This document shows positions 37,883 through 54,308 of a stretch of 64,000 nucleotides of DNA, in pieces. The notes beneath the pieces were generated by a model that saw nothing but the letters and a program-made list of their open reading frames with translations, had not been told where the DNA came from and did not search any database. This stretch comes from Dermabacter hominis NBRC 106157 (GTDB taxonomy: Bacteria; Actinomycetota; Actinomycetes; Actinomycetales; Dermabacteraceae): contig NZ_BCSI01000003.1 of NCBI RefSeq assembly GCF_001570785.1, positions 186,001 to 250,000 on the forward strand, read 5' to 3'. The position numbers and the translations under genes were made by a program. Position 1 is the stretch's first letter, and each line of letters begins with the position of its first letter.

Positions 37883-37925
37883 GCTTTGACGCACACGTGA
37901 CATACCGGACCACGACGGAGGACCA

Positions 37926-38282
37926 ATGACCGACACCGCAACTAAAGCTGTTCCCGCACACGGTGTGACCCTCACCGAGGTTGCATCCGACAAGGTGAAA
38001 CAGCTTCTCGCGCAAGAAGGTCGCGATGACCTGCGCCTTCGTATCGCCGTTCAGCCTGGCGGCTGCTCGGGGCTCATCTATCAGCTCTACTTCGATGAAC
38101 GTCTCCTTGAGGGCGATGCGACCGTTGACTTCAACGGCGTCGAGGTCGTTGTCGACAAGAACTCGATCCCGTTCCTGTCGGGGGCAACGATCGACTTCTC
38201 CGACACCATCGAGAAGCAGGGCTTCACGATCGACAACCCCAATGCGTCGAGCTCGTGCGCATGCGGAGACTCCTTCGCCTAA
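37926..38282 (+). CDS. erpA: Iron-sulfur cluster insertion protein (ErpA/HesB family)
   Basis: This is a 118-residue A-type carrier that passes Fe-S clusters to target enzymes. The three ligand cysteines are in QPGGCSGLIYQ and SSSCACGDSF, exactly as in the family. A GGAGGACC lies just before the ATG. In Actinomycetota this gene commonly sits upstream of ctaC, as here, which may reflect co-evolution with respiratory complexes such as the Rieske protein encoded nearby. Confidence 0.95.
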   Translation: MTDTATKAVPAHGVTLTEVASDKVKQLLAQEGRDDLRLRIAVQPGGCSGLIYQLYFDERLLEGDATVDFNGVEVVVDKNSIPFLSGATIDFSDTIEKQGFTIDNPNASSSCACGDSFA

Positions 38283-48824: not shown

Positions 48825-49913
48825 ATGACGGATCAAGAAATCTATACGTGGCCCGCGCTGACCCACGCCCTCATCAAAGGGCGCGATCTCACGTCCGAAG
48901 AGGCGTGGTGGGCGATGCAGCAGATCATGCGCGGCGACGTTGGTCCGGTCCCTCTCGCCGGTTTCCTCGTGGCGCTTCAGTCGAAGGGGGCGGTGACCCA
49001 TGAGGTCAACGCTCTCTCCTCCTCTATGCTCGAGCACTCGAGGATCATTAGTGCGCCCACTGGCGCCGTCGACATCGTGGGGATGGGCGGAGACGGCGCC
49101 AATACCGTCAATATTTCGACCATGGCCTCGCTCGTGATCCGCGGCGCGGGGATTCCTGTGGCGAAGCACGGCAACCGTGCCGTGAGTTCGAAATCGGGTT
49201 CGGCGGACGTACTCGACGCGCTCGGGGTGCGCCTGAATCTTCCCGTGGAGGGCGTGCAGCGCGTGCTTGACGAAGCGGGAATCTCGTTTTGTTTCGCCCA
49301 GGTTTTTCATCCGTCGATGAAACACGGTGCGGTTGCCCGAGCCGGTCTCAAACTGCCCACGGTTTTCAACGTGCTCGGTCCCATCACCAATCCCGCCGGG
49401 GTTCGTGCTCATTCCGTCGGCGTGGCATTCGAGGAGATGGCGCCTGTCATCGCGGGTGTCTTTGCAGACCGCGGCGCGTCCGCAATCGTCGTGCGCGGGC
49501 GCGACGGCCTCGACGAGCTGAGTATCTCCGCCGAAACCGATGTGTGGGAGGTAAGGGACGGCTCCGTTACGTCGCACGTTGTCGCACCCGAAGACTACGG
49601 ACTCTCACGCGCACGTATCGACGCGTTGCGCGGTGGCGACCCCTCCTACAATGCCCAGGTGGCGCGAGACCTGCTTGCCGGCAAGACTGGGCCCGTGCGA
49701 GATGCCGTCGTGCTCAATGCCGCTTCTGGCATCGTCGCAGCCGAGGGGCTCAGGGAGAGTTCCGACGCCAGCCCGGCCTTCGCCGAGCGAATGCTCAGCG
49801 CCGTGAAGCGGGCCGAAGACTCACTCGATTCCGGAGCCGCCAAGGCCGCGCTTGAGCGGTGGATCAACGTATCGCAGAGCGTCGAAATACCCGCTGAAAC
49901 TCTTCGATCGTAA
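48825..49913 (+). CDS. trpD: Anthranilate phosphoribosyltransferase
   Basis: This is a 362-residue enzyme that transfers phosphoribose from PRPP to anthranilate in tryptophan synthesis. The PRPP-binding segment GMGGDGANTVNISTM (usually GTGGD, here Met in place of Thr), KHGNRAVSSKSGSADVL and FNVLGPITNPAG are diagnostic. It stands apart from the other trp genes next to ctaE, a known actinobacterial placement. Its last 50 bases overlap the convergent exonuclease gene. Confidence 0.95.
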   Translation: MTDQEIYTWPALTHALIKGRDLTSEEAWWAMQQIMRGDVGPVPLAGFLVALQSKGAVTHEVNALSSSMLEHSRIISAPTGAVDIVGMGGDGANTVNISTMASLVIRGAGIPVAKHGNRAVSSKSGSADVLDALGVRLNLPVEGVQRVLDEAGISFCFAQVFHPSMKHGAVARAGLKLPTVFNVLGPITNPAGVRAHSVGVAFEEMAPVIAGVFADRGASAIVVRGRDGLDELSISAETDVWEVRDGSVTSHVVAPEDYGLSRARIDALRGGDPSYNAQVARDLLAGKTGPVRDAVVLNAASGIVAAEGLRESSDASPAFAERMLSAVKRAEDSLDSGAAKAALERWINVSQSVEIPAETLRS

Positions 49914-51636
49914 AGCGGGCGGTCGACGGCATCGACCACTCGCCCTCCACGTGAACGATCCGGATGCCAGGTTTCGCGAGCCATTCGAGGATGAGCTCAG
50001 CCTCGTGGTGGTAGCCGAAGCAAAGCGGGGTGCACAGGGCGGCCTCCGCTTCGCTTTCGCGAGCAAGTGCCTCGATAGCCGAAAGCGGGTCGCTCCACGC
50101 CGGCATCGTGCGCGCTGCCCCAAGCCGCCCGTGTCGTACGGCAAGAATCTCCCACTGCCAGGGCGATTCAGCCGAAGCGTCGTGGGACGAGATTTTGCGC
50201 GCCGCGACGAGGAGTGGAACCTCCGCGATCGATCGCAATCGTGCGGCACGCCGTGCGGCATCAGCAAACAACTCGACCCTTGTGCGCAGCGCCTCGGCGT
50301 TCTCGTAGAGACCACGCCCCACGAGCGTGCGCATTTTCTTAGCCGCGTACTCAAATACATCGCTCGGATCCTCGGTGAGGGCCCGGTACATACGTGCGTG
50401 GAAGCCTGCGCTGCCGTGCACGGGCTCCGACGGTTCTGTGGCAAGCGTCGGTCCATAAACCGGTGGCACCGGCAGACCACCCACGGCAGCCGACGGTTCC
50501 CGGGGAACCGTCGGACTTTCGGTCCCGGCGCGACCTTCCGCGGCACCAGCGTTGTCCTCTTCAGCCCCGATAGCCGCAGTCAGCGCCGCGTACACGAGGG
50601 AGCGAATTGGCTCGACGTCGTGGCGCGAGCGAAGCGGGCCGATATAGGCGTGGAGCGACGTTTCACTTTTCACAGTGCGCGCGAGGCGCAGCCCATCGGT
50701 CGTGACCCGAAGCCAATTGCCCTTAGAGGGACGGATTCCCTGACGGTTGGCGATGGGGCGTTCACTCGCGATTGCGCGCAGCTCGCGGATAGCGGCCTCG
50801 GTTTCGCTCGAACACTGCACAACGTCGATGCGCTCGGTCACGGGAATGATGTCGAGGACGGCGCGCCTTGTCTCGTTCGGTGAAAAATAGGTGCGCACGC
50901 GCGAGCGGAGATTGCCCGACTTGCCGATGTACAGCGTTGAACCGTTGGCGTCGACGAAGGAGTACACGCCGGGCACGGGCGGGATGTCCGCCGCGAGGTG
51001 GCGTTTGCGGATTTGGGCGGGGCTTGCTTTCTTCCCGCTCGAGGTGAGATCCGAGAGATGGCTTGCGCCACCGACAGAAAGTCGCGCGATGATCTCATGG
51101 AGCACATCGACCGTTGCTCGCGCATCCGAAAGCGCGCGGTGGTTGGGCACCGTAGTTGCCCCAACCGCCCCCGCGAGAGTCGAAAGCTTGTGGTTCTTCA
51201 CTTCGTCGCGTCCGAAAACGCGGCGTGCAAGCGTGAGTGTATCGACGACCTCGAAGGGAGGCCACCGGTAATCGAGCCGAAGAGCAGCCGCCTTTAGGAA
51301 ACCGATGTCGAAGCGTGCGTTGTGCGCGACGAGAACCGAGGTGCGCGCGAACTCGAGGAACGCGGGGATGACCGCTTCTGCCGACGGCGCATCGCGAACC
51401 ATGTGGTCAGAGATCCCCGTGAGCGCGGCGATGTACGCAGGTATCGGGCGTTCGGGGTTGACGAACGTCTGAAACTCCTCGACAACCTCGCCGCCCACGA
51501 CCCGCACGGCGCCAATTTCCGTAATGGCATCCAGCTCGGTATTCGTTCCGGTGGTCTCGAGGTCGACGACAACGAACTCGACGTCGATGAGCTCCGGGCC
51601 AAGATCCTCGAATGCCCGCTGCGCAGCCCGAGCGAT
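49864..51636 (-). CDS. DEDD exonuclease-GIY-YIG (UvrC-like) fusion protein with non-canonical start
   Basis: This is an about 590-residue fusion. Domain 1 is a DnaQ-like 3'-5' exonuclease: FVVVDLETTG (Exo I), VLVAHNARFDIGFL (Exo II), NHRALSDARATVDVL (Exo III). Domain 2 (about 200-280) is a GIY-YIG nuclease fold, GVYSFVDANGSTLYIGKSGNLRSR, and the remainder resembles the UvrC-like extension of actinobacterial 'DEDD exonuclease' proteins. The first ATG/GTG/TTG (GTG 51507) would cut off Exo I. Between the upstream stop and that GTG there is no canonical start. An ATC at 51636-51634 with AAGGCGG seven to eight bases before it is the best candidate. Likely role: DNA repair or proofreading. Confidence 0.85.
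   Translation of the reverse strand: MARAAQRAFEDLGPELIDVEFVVVDLETTGTNTELDAITEIGAVRVVGGEVVEEFQTFVNPERPIPAYIAALTGISDHMVRDAPSAEAVIPAFLEFARTSVLVAHNARFDIGFLKAAALRLDYRWPPFEVVDTLTLARRVFGRDEVKNHKLSTLAGAVGATTVPNHRALSDARATVDVLHEIIARLSVGGASHLSDLTSSGKKASPAQIRKRHLAADIPPVPGVYSFVDANGSTLYIGKSGNLRSRVRTYFSPNETRRAVLDIIPVTERIDVVQCSSETEAAIRELRAIASERPIANRQGIRPSKGNWLRVTTDGLRLARTVKSETSLHAYIGPLRSRHDVEPIRSLVYAALTAAIGAEEDNAGAAEGRAGTESPTVPREPSAAVGGLPVPPVYGPTLATEPSEPVHGSAGFHARMYRALTEDPSDVFEYAAKKMRTLVGRGLYENAEALRTRVELFADAARRAARLRSIAEVPLLVAARKISSHDASAESPWQWEILAVRHGRLGAARTMPAWSDPLSAIEALARESEAEAALCTPLCFGYHHEAELILEWLAKPGIRIVHVEGEWSMPSTARFTIEEFQRVFRRSAIR
50490..50514. repeat. Variant palindrome inside the exonuclease gene
   Basis: CCGACGGTTCC (50490-50500) and GGAACCGTCGG (50504-50514) flank CGG. 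It resembles the palindrome at 33733-33761 and sits in a low-complexity linker (TVPREPSAAVGG) of the protein, as if a mobile extragenic repeat had inserted in frame. Confidence 0.6.
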
Positions 51637-51649
51637 GGCGCCGTCCGCC

Positions 51650-53449
51650 TTACTTCTTCGTGTAAATGCGGTCGATGACCTCGGAGAAATCCTTCACAAC
51701 AGCGGCACGCTTGAGCTTGAACGACGGGGTGAGGTAACCGTTTTCCTCCGTGAAATCCGCATCAATAATCTCGAACTTGCGGATCGACTCGGCGCGAGAG
51801 ACCGAGGTATTCGCTTCGTCAACGGCTTTCTGGACCTCGGCGATGACCTGCTCGTTCGTAATGGCTTCGGCAAGTGACATCGACCCGAGCCCCTGGTTCT
51901 TGAGCCACCGGGGGAGCATTTCGCGGTCGAGAGTCACGATCGCGGACACGAACGGCTTTTGGTCGCCAAGAACGATGCACTGGCCAACGACGGGGCTCTG
52001 GCGAACGGTGTCCTCGAGCTGGGCAGGCGACACGTTCTTGCCGCCTGCGGTGACGATGATTTCCTTTGAACGGCCCGTAATCGTGATGTAGCCGTCCTCA
52101 TCGATGCTCGCGGTGTCGCCCGTGTTGAACCAGCCGTCCTGGAGGGCCAGCGCGGTGGCGTCGGGATTGTTCCAGTAGCCCTTGAAAACCATGACGCCCT
52201 TGACGAGCAGCTCGCCCTTGTCGTTGAGCTTGACTTTGGCGCCTGGGAACGGGGGGCCGACGGTGCCGACCTTGACATCCCACGGATTGTTGACGCCTAC
52301 GGGGGCGGTCGTTTCCGTGAGGCCATAGCCTTCCAGGATCGTGACACCGATGCCGCGGAAGAAGTGGGGGAGGCGGTCGCCAAGTGGTGCACCACCCGAG
52401 ATTGCGTAGGTGAGCTTTCCACCCATGAGATTGCGCAGCTTCGAGTACACGAGCGTGTCGAACAGCTTGTACTGGGCTTTCACGTGCAGGGGAATCTTGC
52501 CCGTGTCGAGGCCCTTCGAATACTGGATGGCCACCTCGACGGCACGGTGGAAGATCTTACCCTTACCGTCTCCAACAGCCTTTTGCTCGGCGCCGTTGTA
52601 GACCTTTTCGAACACGCGAGGGACTGCGAGCAGGGACGTGGGCTTGAACGAGGCGAGATCGTCGAGGAGGTGCTTCGCATCGGGGGAGAAACCTGTCGTG
52701 CACCCGCACACGATGGTGATGAACGTGATGTCGCGTGCGAACACGTGCGCGAGCGGAAGGAACATCAGCAGGCGCGAGCCAGGGGGCATAACCGCTTCAC
52801 CCAGAAGGCCCACTGCGTTGAGGGACTGATCCATGAAGTTTGCGTGCGTGAGCTCCACGCCCTTGGGCCGGCCGGTCGTGCCGGAGGTGTAGACGATCGT
52901 CGCGGTGTCTGACTTGTGCCGGCTCTTGCGCGCCTTCTCGATCGCGTCGTCGTCGATGTCGGCTTCTGCGACGGAGAGCTGCTCGATGATGCCCTCTTCG
53001 ATGACCCACACCTGCTCGAGGTCCGAGAGCGAAGGGCGAACTTCGTCGATATCCTGCGCATGGCCGGCGTTCTCGCAAAAAATGAAGCGTGCACCGGAGT
53101 CCGAAGCGATCCATTCGATCTGCCCGGGGGAGGACGTTTCGTAGATCGGCACGCTGATCGCCCCGGTGAACCACAATGCCCAGTCGATGAGTACCCATTC
53201 GAAGCGCGTGCGAGACATGATCGCGACTCGGTCGCCTGGCTGGACGCCTTCGTTGATAAGCCCCTGTGCGAGACGCTTCACGAGCGTGATGAATTCAGGT
53301 GCGTACATGGGCGACCATGTGCCGGGGGTGAGCTGACGTTCCCACAGGGGAATGTCGGCGTACTTGGTGCGGCGTAGAAGGAGGAAGTCGGTGATGTTTT
53401 CGTCTGGCTTCGACTCTGCGATTTGCGGCGTTTCGAACTCGCGTGACAC
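51650..53449 (-). CDS. Long-chain acyl-CoA ligase (AMP-dependent)
   Basis: This is a 599-residue FadD15-like enzyme that activates long-chain fatty acids to CoA thioesters. The AMP-binding motif is ATIVYTSGTTGRPKGVELTH, with YGLTETTAPV and the C-terminal ITGRSKEIIVTAGGKNVSP. The GTG at 53449 with AAGGAG nine bases upstream is preferred over the GTG at 53485, which has no site. It lies between the exonuclease and an acyltransferase on the opposite strand, an arrangement similar to the fadD15-Rv2182c neighbourhood of mycobacteria. Confidence 0.93.
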   Translation of the reverse strand: MSREFETPQIAESKPDENITDFLLLRRTKYADIPLWERQLTPGTWSPMYAPEFITLVKRLAQGLINEGVQPGDRVAIMSRTRFEWVLIDWALWFTGAISVPIYETSSPGQIEWIASDSGARFIFCENAGHAQDIDEVRPSLSDLEQVWVIEEGIIEQLSVAEADIDDDAIEKARKSRHKSDTATIVYTSGTTGRPKGVELTHANFMDQSLNAVGLLGEAVMPPGSRLLMFLPLAHVFARDITFITIVCGCTTGFSPDAKHLLDDLASFKPTSLLAVPRVFEKVYNGAEQKAVGDGKGKIFHRAVEVAIQYSKGLDTGKIPLHVKAQYKLFDTLVYSKLRNLMGGKLTYAISGGAPLGDRLPHFFRGIGVTILEGYGLTETTAPVGVNNPWDVKVGTVGPPFPGAKVKLNDKGELLVKGVMVFKGYWNNPDATALALQDGWFNTGDTASIDEDGYITITGRSKEIIVTAGGKNVSPAQLEDTVRQSPVVGQCIVLGDQKPFVSAIVTLDREMLPRWLKNQGLGSMSLAEAITNEQVIAEVQKAVDEANTSVSRAESIRKFEIIDADFTEENGYLTPSFKLKRAAVVKDFSEVIDRIYTKK

Positions 53450-53569
53450 GGGGGAATGCTCCTTGACTTCTAGGCGGGGCTGCACTCGAGTGTACGCGCC
53501 TCACGACCATTGAGGGATGTAGGAGGCTTCGTGTGGCGCGTTCCTTCCCTCACGATGGGCGCTGCCCTA

Positions 53570-53575
53570 TAGGGT
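53570..53575 (+). promoter_or_regulatory. -10 element of a leaderless start (acyltransferase)
   Basis: TAGGGT is seven bases before the GTG at 53583; no ribosome-binding site is seen. Confidence 0.5.
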
Positions 53576-53582
53576 TATCCCC

Positions 53583-54308
53583 GTGCATCTCTATCCCGTC
53601 TTGCAACCCATCGTTAAATTTCTCCTCACGCTCCTTTGGCGGCCCACCGTATCGGGCCTCCAGCACGTTCCATCCTCGGGACGCATGATCATGGCGTGCA
53701 ATCACACCTCCGCGTTCGAAACCTATTTTGTGCCGTGCATGATTCCGCGCGAGATCCACTGGCTTGGAAAGGATGCTCTTTTCAAGGGCAAAGGGGTCCC
53801 AGGGAAGTTTTTTGCGTGGCTCATGCGTTCGGTCAATGTGATTCCCGTGGATCGTTCGGGAAGCGGTGGCGCGAGCTCGGCGCTCGACGCGGGGATCGCG
53901 GTGCTCGAAGGTGAGCACGCTCTCGGTGTGTTCCCCGAGGGCACGAGGAGCCATGACGGGCGGATGTATCGCGGTAAGACGGGCGCGGTACGCCTCGCGC
54001 TCGCGACGGGTGCGCCCATCCTTCCCGTCGCCGAACTTGGCGCCTTTGAGGCGCAGCGCTCGAAGAATTCCATCGTGCCGAAGTTCCGTTCAAAGCTCCA
54101 TACACAGATCGGCCCCACGATCGACATGCGCGCGCAGTTGTCGACGTTGAGGGCAGACAATCCGAGCGACGCACCCGCCACGCGCGAAGAACTTCGCGCG
54201 CTCACGCGCTCGCTCATGGAGGCGATTCGCGAGCTATCCGGCCAGGAGTATGTGGACGAGTACGCCGCGGACGTGAAGAAAAGACTCAAGGACGCGAACG
54301 CTTCGTAA
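53583..54308 (+). CDS. 1-acyl-sn-glycerol-3-phosphate acyltransferase family (PlsC-like)
   Basis: This is a 241-residue membrane-associated acyltransferase. Motif I reads NHTSAFE, motif II region VIPVDRSG, motif III FPEGTRS and motif IV about ILPVAELG. In motif I the catalytic pair is H-X4-E instead of the usual H-X4-D. It should transfer acyl chains to lysophospholipids, fitting the neighbouring acyl-CoA ligase. GTG start at 53583 is leaderless by its -10. Confidence 0.9.
   Translation: MHLYPVLQPIVKFLLTLLWRPTVSGLQHVPSSGRMIMACNHTSAFETYFVPCMIPREIHWLGKDALFKGKGVPGKFFAWLMRSVNVIPVDRSGSGGASSALDAGIAVLEGEHALGVFPEGTRSHDGRMYRGKTGAVRLALATGAPILPVAELGAFEAQRSKNSIVPKFRSKLHTQIGPTIDMRAQLSTLRADNPSDAPATREELRALTRSLMEAIRELSGQEYVDEYAADVKKRLKDANAS

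Follow-up and report, generated by a model that had tools for sequence, protein, structure and literature searches.

A putative AUC start codon for an exonuclease-GIY-YIG gene of Dermabacter hominis and candidate non-canonical starts in its closest relatives

Results

A nuclease gene with a putative AUC start

Our analyses favour, at a probability of about 80%, a natural AUC start at position 51636 for the gene encoding a DEDDh exonuclease with a GIY-YIG domain in Dermabacter hominis NBRC 106157, a start that would keep expression of the nuclease low and sensitive to IF3. This reading draws together the recurrence of ATC in related species, the homologous position of the codon, a coding signal downstream of it, a match to the family NF005907 that begins at residue 3, the use of ATC by infC in the same bacterial family, the grouping of the non-canonical starts in one clade and the loss of a promoter there. 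The window, that is the whole stretch of 64,000 nucleotides analysed, is part of a 2.16 Mb genome (G000). The comparisons centre on the five genomes of what we call the Dermabacter clade, namely G000, G001, G002 and G003, all Dermabacter, and G004 from a sister genus.

The open exonuclease/GIY-YIG frame spans 51693-49864 on the minus strand (609 codons) and is preceded by an in-frame stop, TGA, at 51696-51694. The initial annotation had stated that no ATG, GTG or TTG lies between this stop and a GTG at 51507, and had proposed AUC as the start; on re-reading the frame we found the same, with GTG 51507 as the first canonical start and already past the Exo I motif FVVVDLETTG (Table 1). Given the codon usage of the nuclease gene, a run of about 42 codons with no canonical start has a chance of about 15%, so that what exceeds chance is the translation of the frame in this stretch together with the recurrence of the pattern in four related genomes. 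The AAGGCGG reported ahead of the ATC is indeed there, and it overlaps the TAA of the long-chain acyl-CoA ligase gene (51652-51650), which ends 13 nt before the ATC. Paired with the 16S tail of the D. hominis genome, which is standard (CACCTCCTTTCT), this Shine-Dalgarno (SD)-like sequence is predicted to form a duplex of -7.3 kcal/mol, which beats chance only moderately (within the best ~10-11% of random 20-mers from the window). It is imperfect, and in D. hominis it is predicted to be largely paired.

Translated from the ATC, the protein scores 594 bits against NCBIfam NF005907, a family of DEDD exonuclease domain-containing proteins (curated cut-off 454), and is matched from residue 3 to residue 581. 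It thus resembles the actinobacterial DnaQ-like exonucleases with a GIY-YIG domain over its whole length.

Table 1. Features of the nuclease locus in the window
Feature	Coordinates	Strand	Basis
Long-chain acyl-CoA ligase gene, upstream neighbour	51650..53485	-	Pfam AMP-binding, 9.6e-73
SD-like AAGGCGG, 8 nt ahead of ATC	51645..51651	-	TAAGGCGG identical in G001 and G003
Candidate AUC start codon of the nuclease	51634..51636	-	Equidistant from the motif with the ATG in most Brachybacterium and the G008 GTG; ATC in G003 and G001
DEDDh exonuclease + GIY-YIG gene, 590 aa from ATC	49864..51636	-	NF005907, RNase_T, GIY-YIG
Exo I motif FVVVDLETTG	51547..51576	-	Sequence
Exonuclease domain PF00929 (RNase_T), residues 22-179	51100..51573	-	Pfam, above cut-off
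GIY-YIG domain PF01541, residues 223-294	50755..50970	-	Pfam, above cut-off
First canonical start GTG, downstream of Exo I motif	51505..51507	-	Frame inspection

Two further features of the locus were seen. The 3' end of the nuclease gene overlaps a convergent trpD-like gene (plus strand, end at 49913) by 50 bases, 49864-49913, and a small GC hairpin of the AGCG-CCAT-CGCT type, recognized by eye, lies at the ATC (51625-51645) and is also present in G003 and G001. A search for further hidden starts across 56 conserved frames of the window gave a noisy result because of overlaps between neighbouring genes; one frame that it flagged (37890-38279) has an ordinary ATG.

Candidate non-canonical starts recur in the Dermabacter clade

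The nuclease proteins of two other Dermabacter species, G003 and G001, are 85% and 82% identical to that of D. hominis, and both genes have an in-frame ATC following TAAGGCGG, with a spacer of 7 nt as against 8 nt in D. hominis. In none of the five genomes of the clade does the nuclease frame hold a canonical start ahead of the conserved N-terminus. In G001 and G003 the TAA of the ligase gene is itself in frame, 12 nt ahead of the ATC, which confines the start to the 26 codons between this stop and the motif, a stretch that holds no canonical start. In the third other Dermabacter species (G002) and in the sister genus (G004), a single near-cognate candidate clearly precedes the conserved F[ED]DLG stretch, ATT in the former and CTG in the latter. 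The non-canonical codon at the start position is hence ATC in three species and another near-cognate in two. Sequencing error, one of two objections named with the proposal, was rejected on the strength of this recurrence.

The ATC is 22 codons ahead of the motif, at the distance where most Brachybacterium have ATG and G008 has GTG; in this shared start column the N-terminus reads MARAAQRAFEDLG after ATC and MSARRQLSFDDLG in the relatives with ATG or GTG. Of the order-level outgroups whose motif could be located, almost every one has a canonical start, either at the homologous position or upstream of it. In the protein tree, the five species with non-canonical starts form one supported clade that adjoins G008.

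A start at some other nearby non-canonical codon, for example the second ATC at 51588, or at several weak starts, is unlikely in our estimation. The stretch does contain several near-cognate codons, and G002 and G004 must use different positions, but of the near-cognates before the motif 51636 alone is conserved across G000, G003 and G001; where the second ATC stands, G001 has GTC. No other of these codons combines an SD-like sequence with the homologous position. The assignments in G002 and G004 are less sure: the proposed start of G002 is shifted 8 codons upstream of the ATC column and that of G004 2 codons downstream of it, their SDs are weaker, and both genes have a GTG four codons ahead of the motif, the use of which would truncate the conserved N-terminus.

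In a more distant family member, G006 (L078), the EDL stretch is likewise not preceded by a canonical start; its nuclease frame has a sole GTG nine codons before the motif and an ATC ATC further up. Among the records used, the title of L032 carries both Helcobacillus massiliensis and Dermabacter indicis, a conflict of naming.

The stretch upstream of GTG 51507 evolves as coding sequence

Between G000 and G003, codons 2-43 differ at 17 synonymous and 2 non-synonymous sites, with 19 of 21 changes in third positions; the comparison with G001 gave 19 synonymous and 5 non-synonymous differences (third positions, 23/27). If changes were equally probable at the three codon positions, an excess of this size would arise with P of about 8e-8 (G003) and 4e-8 (G001). 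This bias shows that the stretch upstream of GTG 51507 is translated in the nuclease frame in all three species.

As the first canonical start, GTG 51507 is the default and probably the pick of automatic annotation, and initiation there would yield a shorter protein that lacks the Exo I motif and is chiefly a GIY-YIG nuclease. We consider this highly unlikely: in three close species the preceding 42 codons change as coding DNA does, the catalytic Exo I residues D and E are among them, and the NF005907 match from residue 3 also argues against it.

Promoter and start were both lost in one lineage, as would be expected if the gene were decaying or nearly silent after mutation of its start, with the AUC devoid of function. 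The frame is nevertheless intact in five species, and the 300 codons compared downstream between G000 and G003 differ mainly at synonymous sites (137 synonymous, 23 non-synonymous), which indicates a product under selection and makes decay very doubtful.

The ligase-nuclease junction and the loss of a damage-type promoter

The ligase gene lies directly upstream of the nuclease gene in the relatives as well. In G001, G003, G002 and G004 the ligase stop and the nuclease frame share one register, as a ligase-nuclease fusion made by stop-codon readthrough or frameshifting would allow, but we give this hardly any credence, since the stops (TAA, TAA, TAG and TGA) and the +1 frame of G000 leave no single mechanism for all, and since in G008 and Brachybacterium the two are separate genes with an ATG or GTG of their own. 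The same difference in register removes the other objection to an AUC start, that of an upstream start joined by a frameshift, and excludes any readthrough or frameshift shared by the clade.

An addition to the initial annotation is the loss of a promoter in the Dermabacter clade. The start codon of G008 and of many Brachybacterium species follows, at 6-7 nt, the end of a TGTCR-N11-TANNNT motif, which agrees with the consensus of the PafBC damage response (PMC5656591, PMC8151990); loci with such a PafBC-type promoter 6-7 nt before the nuclease ATG or GTG include L011, L012, L015, L018, L077 and others. The short distance is consistent with a transcript that is probably leaderless, and the arrangement suggests that nuclease mRNAs of Brachybacterium and other relatives are damage-induced and leaderless. 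The strict pattern was present at 18 of 40 family loci, where the reversed pattern was never seen (0/40), and at 33 of 54 loci in a set that included order-level outgroups and excluded the Dermabacter clade; by eye, several loci that fail the strict pattern carry a one-letter variant. The distance from ligase stop to nuclease start is 42-181 nt in the relatives as opposed to 6-18 nt in the five species of the clade. Of the NF005907 relatives examined outside the clade, almost all have a canonical start and many a PafBC-type promoter, whereas the clade has neither.

None of the five clade loci (fetched stretches of 5.5-6.2 kb) has a PafBC-like motif on its coding strand, and no sigma-70-like site was found within the ligase region of D. 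hominis (51500-53700); a promoter of the nuclease's own inside the ligase gene was rejected on these grounds. Loss of PafBC from Dermabacter was likewise rejected as the reason for the promoter loss, since the genus retains paired WYL regulators of the PafBC kind. The simplest account would be an ancestral deletion in the Dermabacter clade that removed promoter and start together, after which the nuclease would have depended on the ligase transcript and on a weak start.

Discussion

Comparison with infC and sigR

The infC gene of E. coli starts with ATT. To our knowledge, very few well-characterised bacterial genes have an AUC, AUU or GUC start. In Dermabacteraceae, infC begins with ATC AGC GAA/GAG in all 12 genomes checked (loci L060-L071), each time preceded by GGAG or a close variant as SD, and the ATC codon is therefore in use within the family. 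The parallel with infC that had been drawn at the outset is, then, stronger than first noted. Streptomyces infC also starts with ATC, and Streptomyces sigR has a GTC start that is repressed by IF3 (PMC5472188). In a defined translation system, IF3 disfavours start codon/initiator tRNA pairs with a weak third base (among them AUU/CAU, AUC/UAU and AUC/AAU) (PMC10158994), while in E. coli overexpression of IF3 lowers re-initiation downstream of a stop codon, with a smaller effect where there is an SD (PMC2268962). Switches from AUG to codons of the AUU/CUG type are extremely rare: 61,358 reconstructed AUG starts included one AUG-to-AUU and two AUG-to-CUG switches (PMC5622118). The literature that we found on ATC start codons deals mostly with mitochondrial genomes, and none of the titles listed is on such a nuclease.

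Like infC, which has ATC in Dermabacteraceae too, the nuclease would have a start of the ATC/ATT class after an SD-like sequence. Unlike infC, which regulates itself, the nuclease would be a target alone, and its SD is weaker and overlaps the upstream stop codon. It would share with Streptomyces sigR the situation of an actinobacterial gene other than infC whose non-canonical start is missed by annotation and conserved within a genus; sigR, however, has GTC instead of ATC, an extensive SD (AGGAGGTG) and experimental proof.

A proposed mechanism

We infer the following course of initiation from AUC. A ribosome would re-initiate after the ligase stop, which would couple the nuclease to ligase translation, or would bind the SD-like AAGGCGG, and place fMet at the AUC. 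Since the AUC would face the CAU anticodon of the initiator tRNA with a third-base mismatch, IF3 would reject the complex most of the time. Expression of the nuclease would be low and would rise as free IF3 falls, as for infC and Streptomyces sigR; low expression through AUC is plausible. In evolution, a PafBC-type promoter and a probably leaderless start would have been lost by deletion, the nuclease gene would have moved up to the ligase gene, and the start codons retained since then would all have been weak and non-canonical.

A single C-to-G change would restore ATG, which is a counterpoint to an AUC start, and selection or chance must account for the absence of ATG. It is conceivable, although we think it rather doubtful, that the Dermabacter clade shifted the nuclease from transcriptional damage control, by a PafBC-type promoter with a leaderless start, to translational control by weak starts, that the codon drifted from one to another of AUC, AUU and CUG under selection against canonical starts, and that the nuclease and IF3 form a small IF3-tuned set of genes.

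Implications

With a start at AUC, automatic annotation would shorten the nuclease and drop its catalytic motif. The nuclease of Dermabacter, a genus of skin bacteria, is of a DNA-repair type, and a clade-wide case outside infC that goes together with the disappearance of a damage-type promoter offers a natural test of selection for weak starts, and likewise of whether the level of IF3 sets the amount of a repair enzyme.
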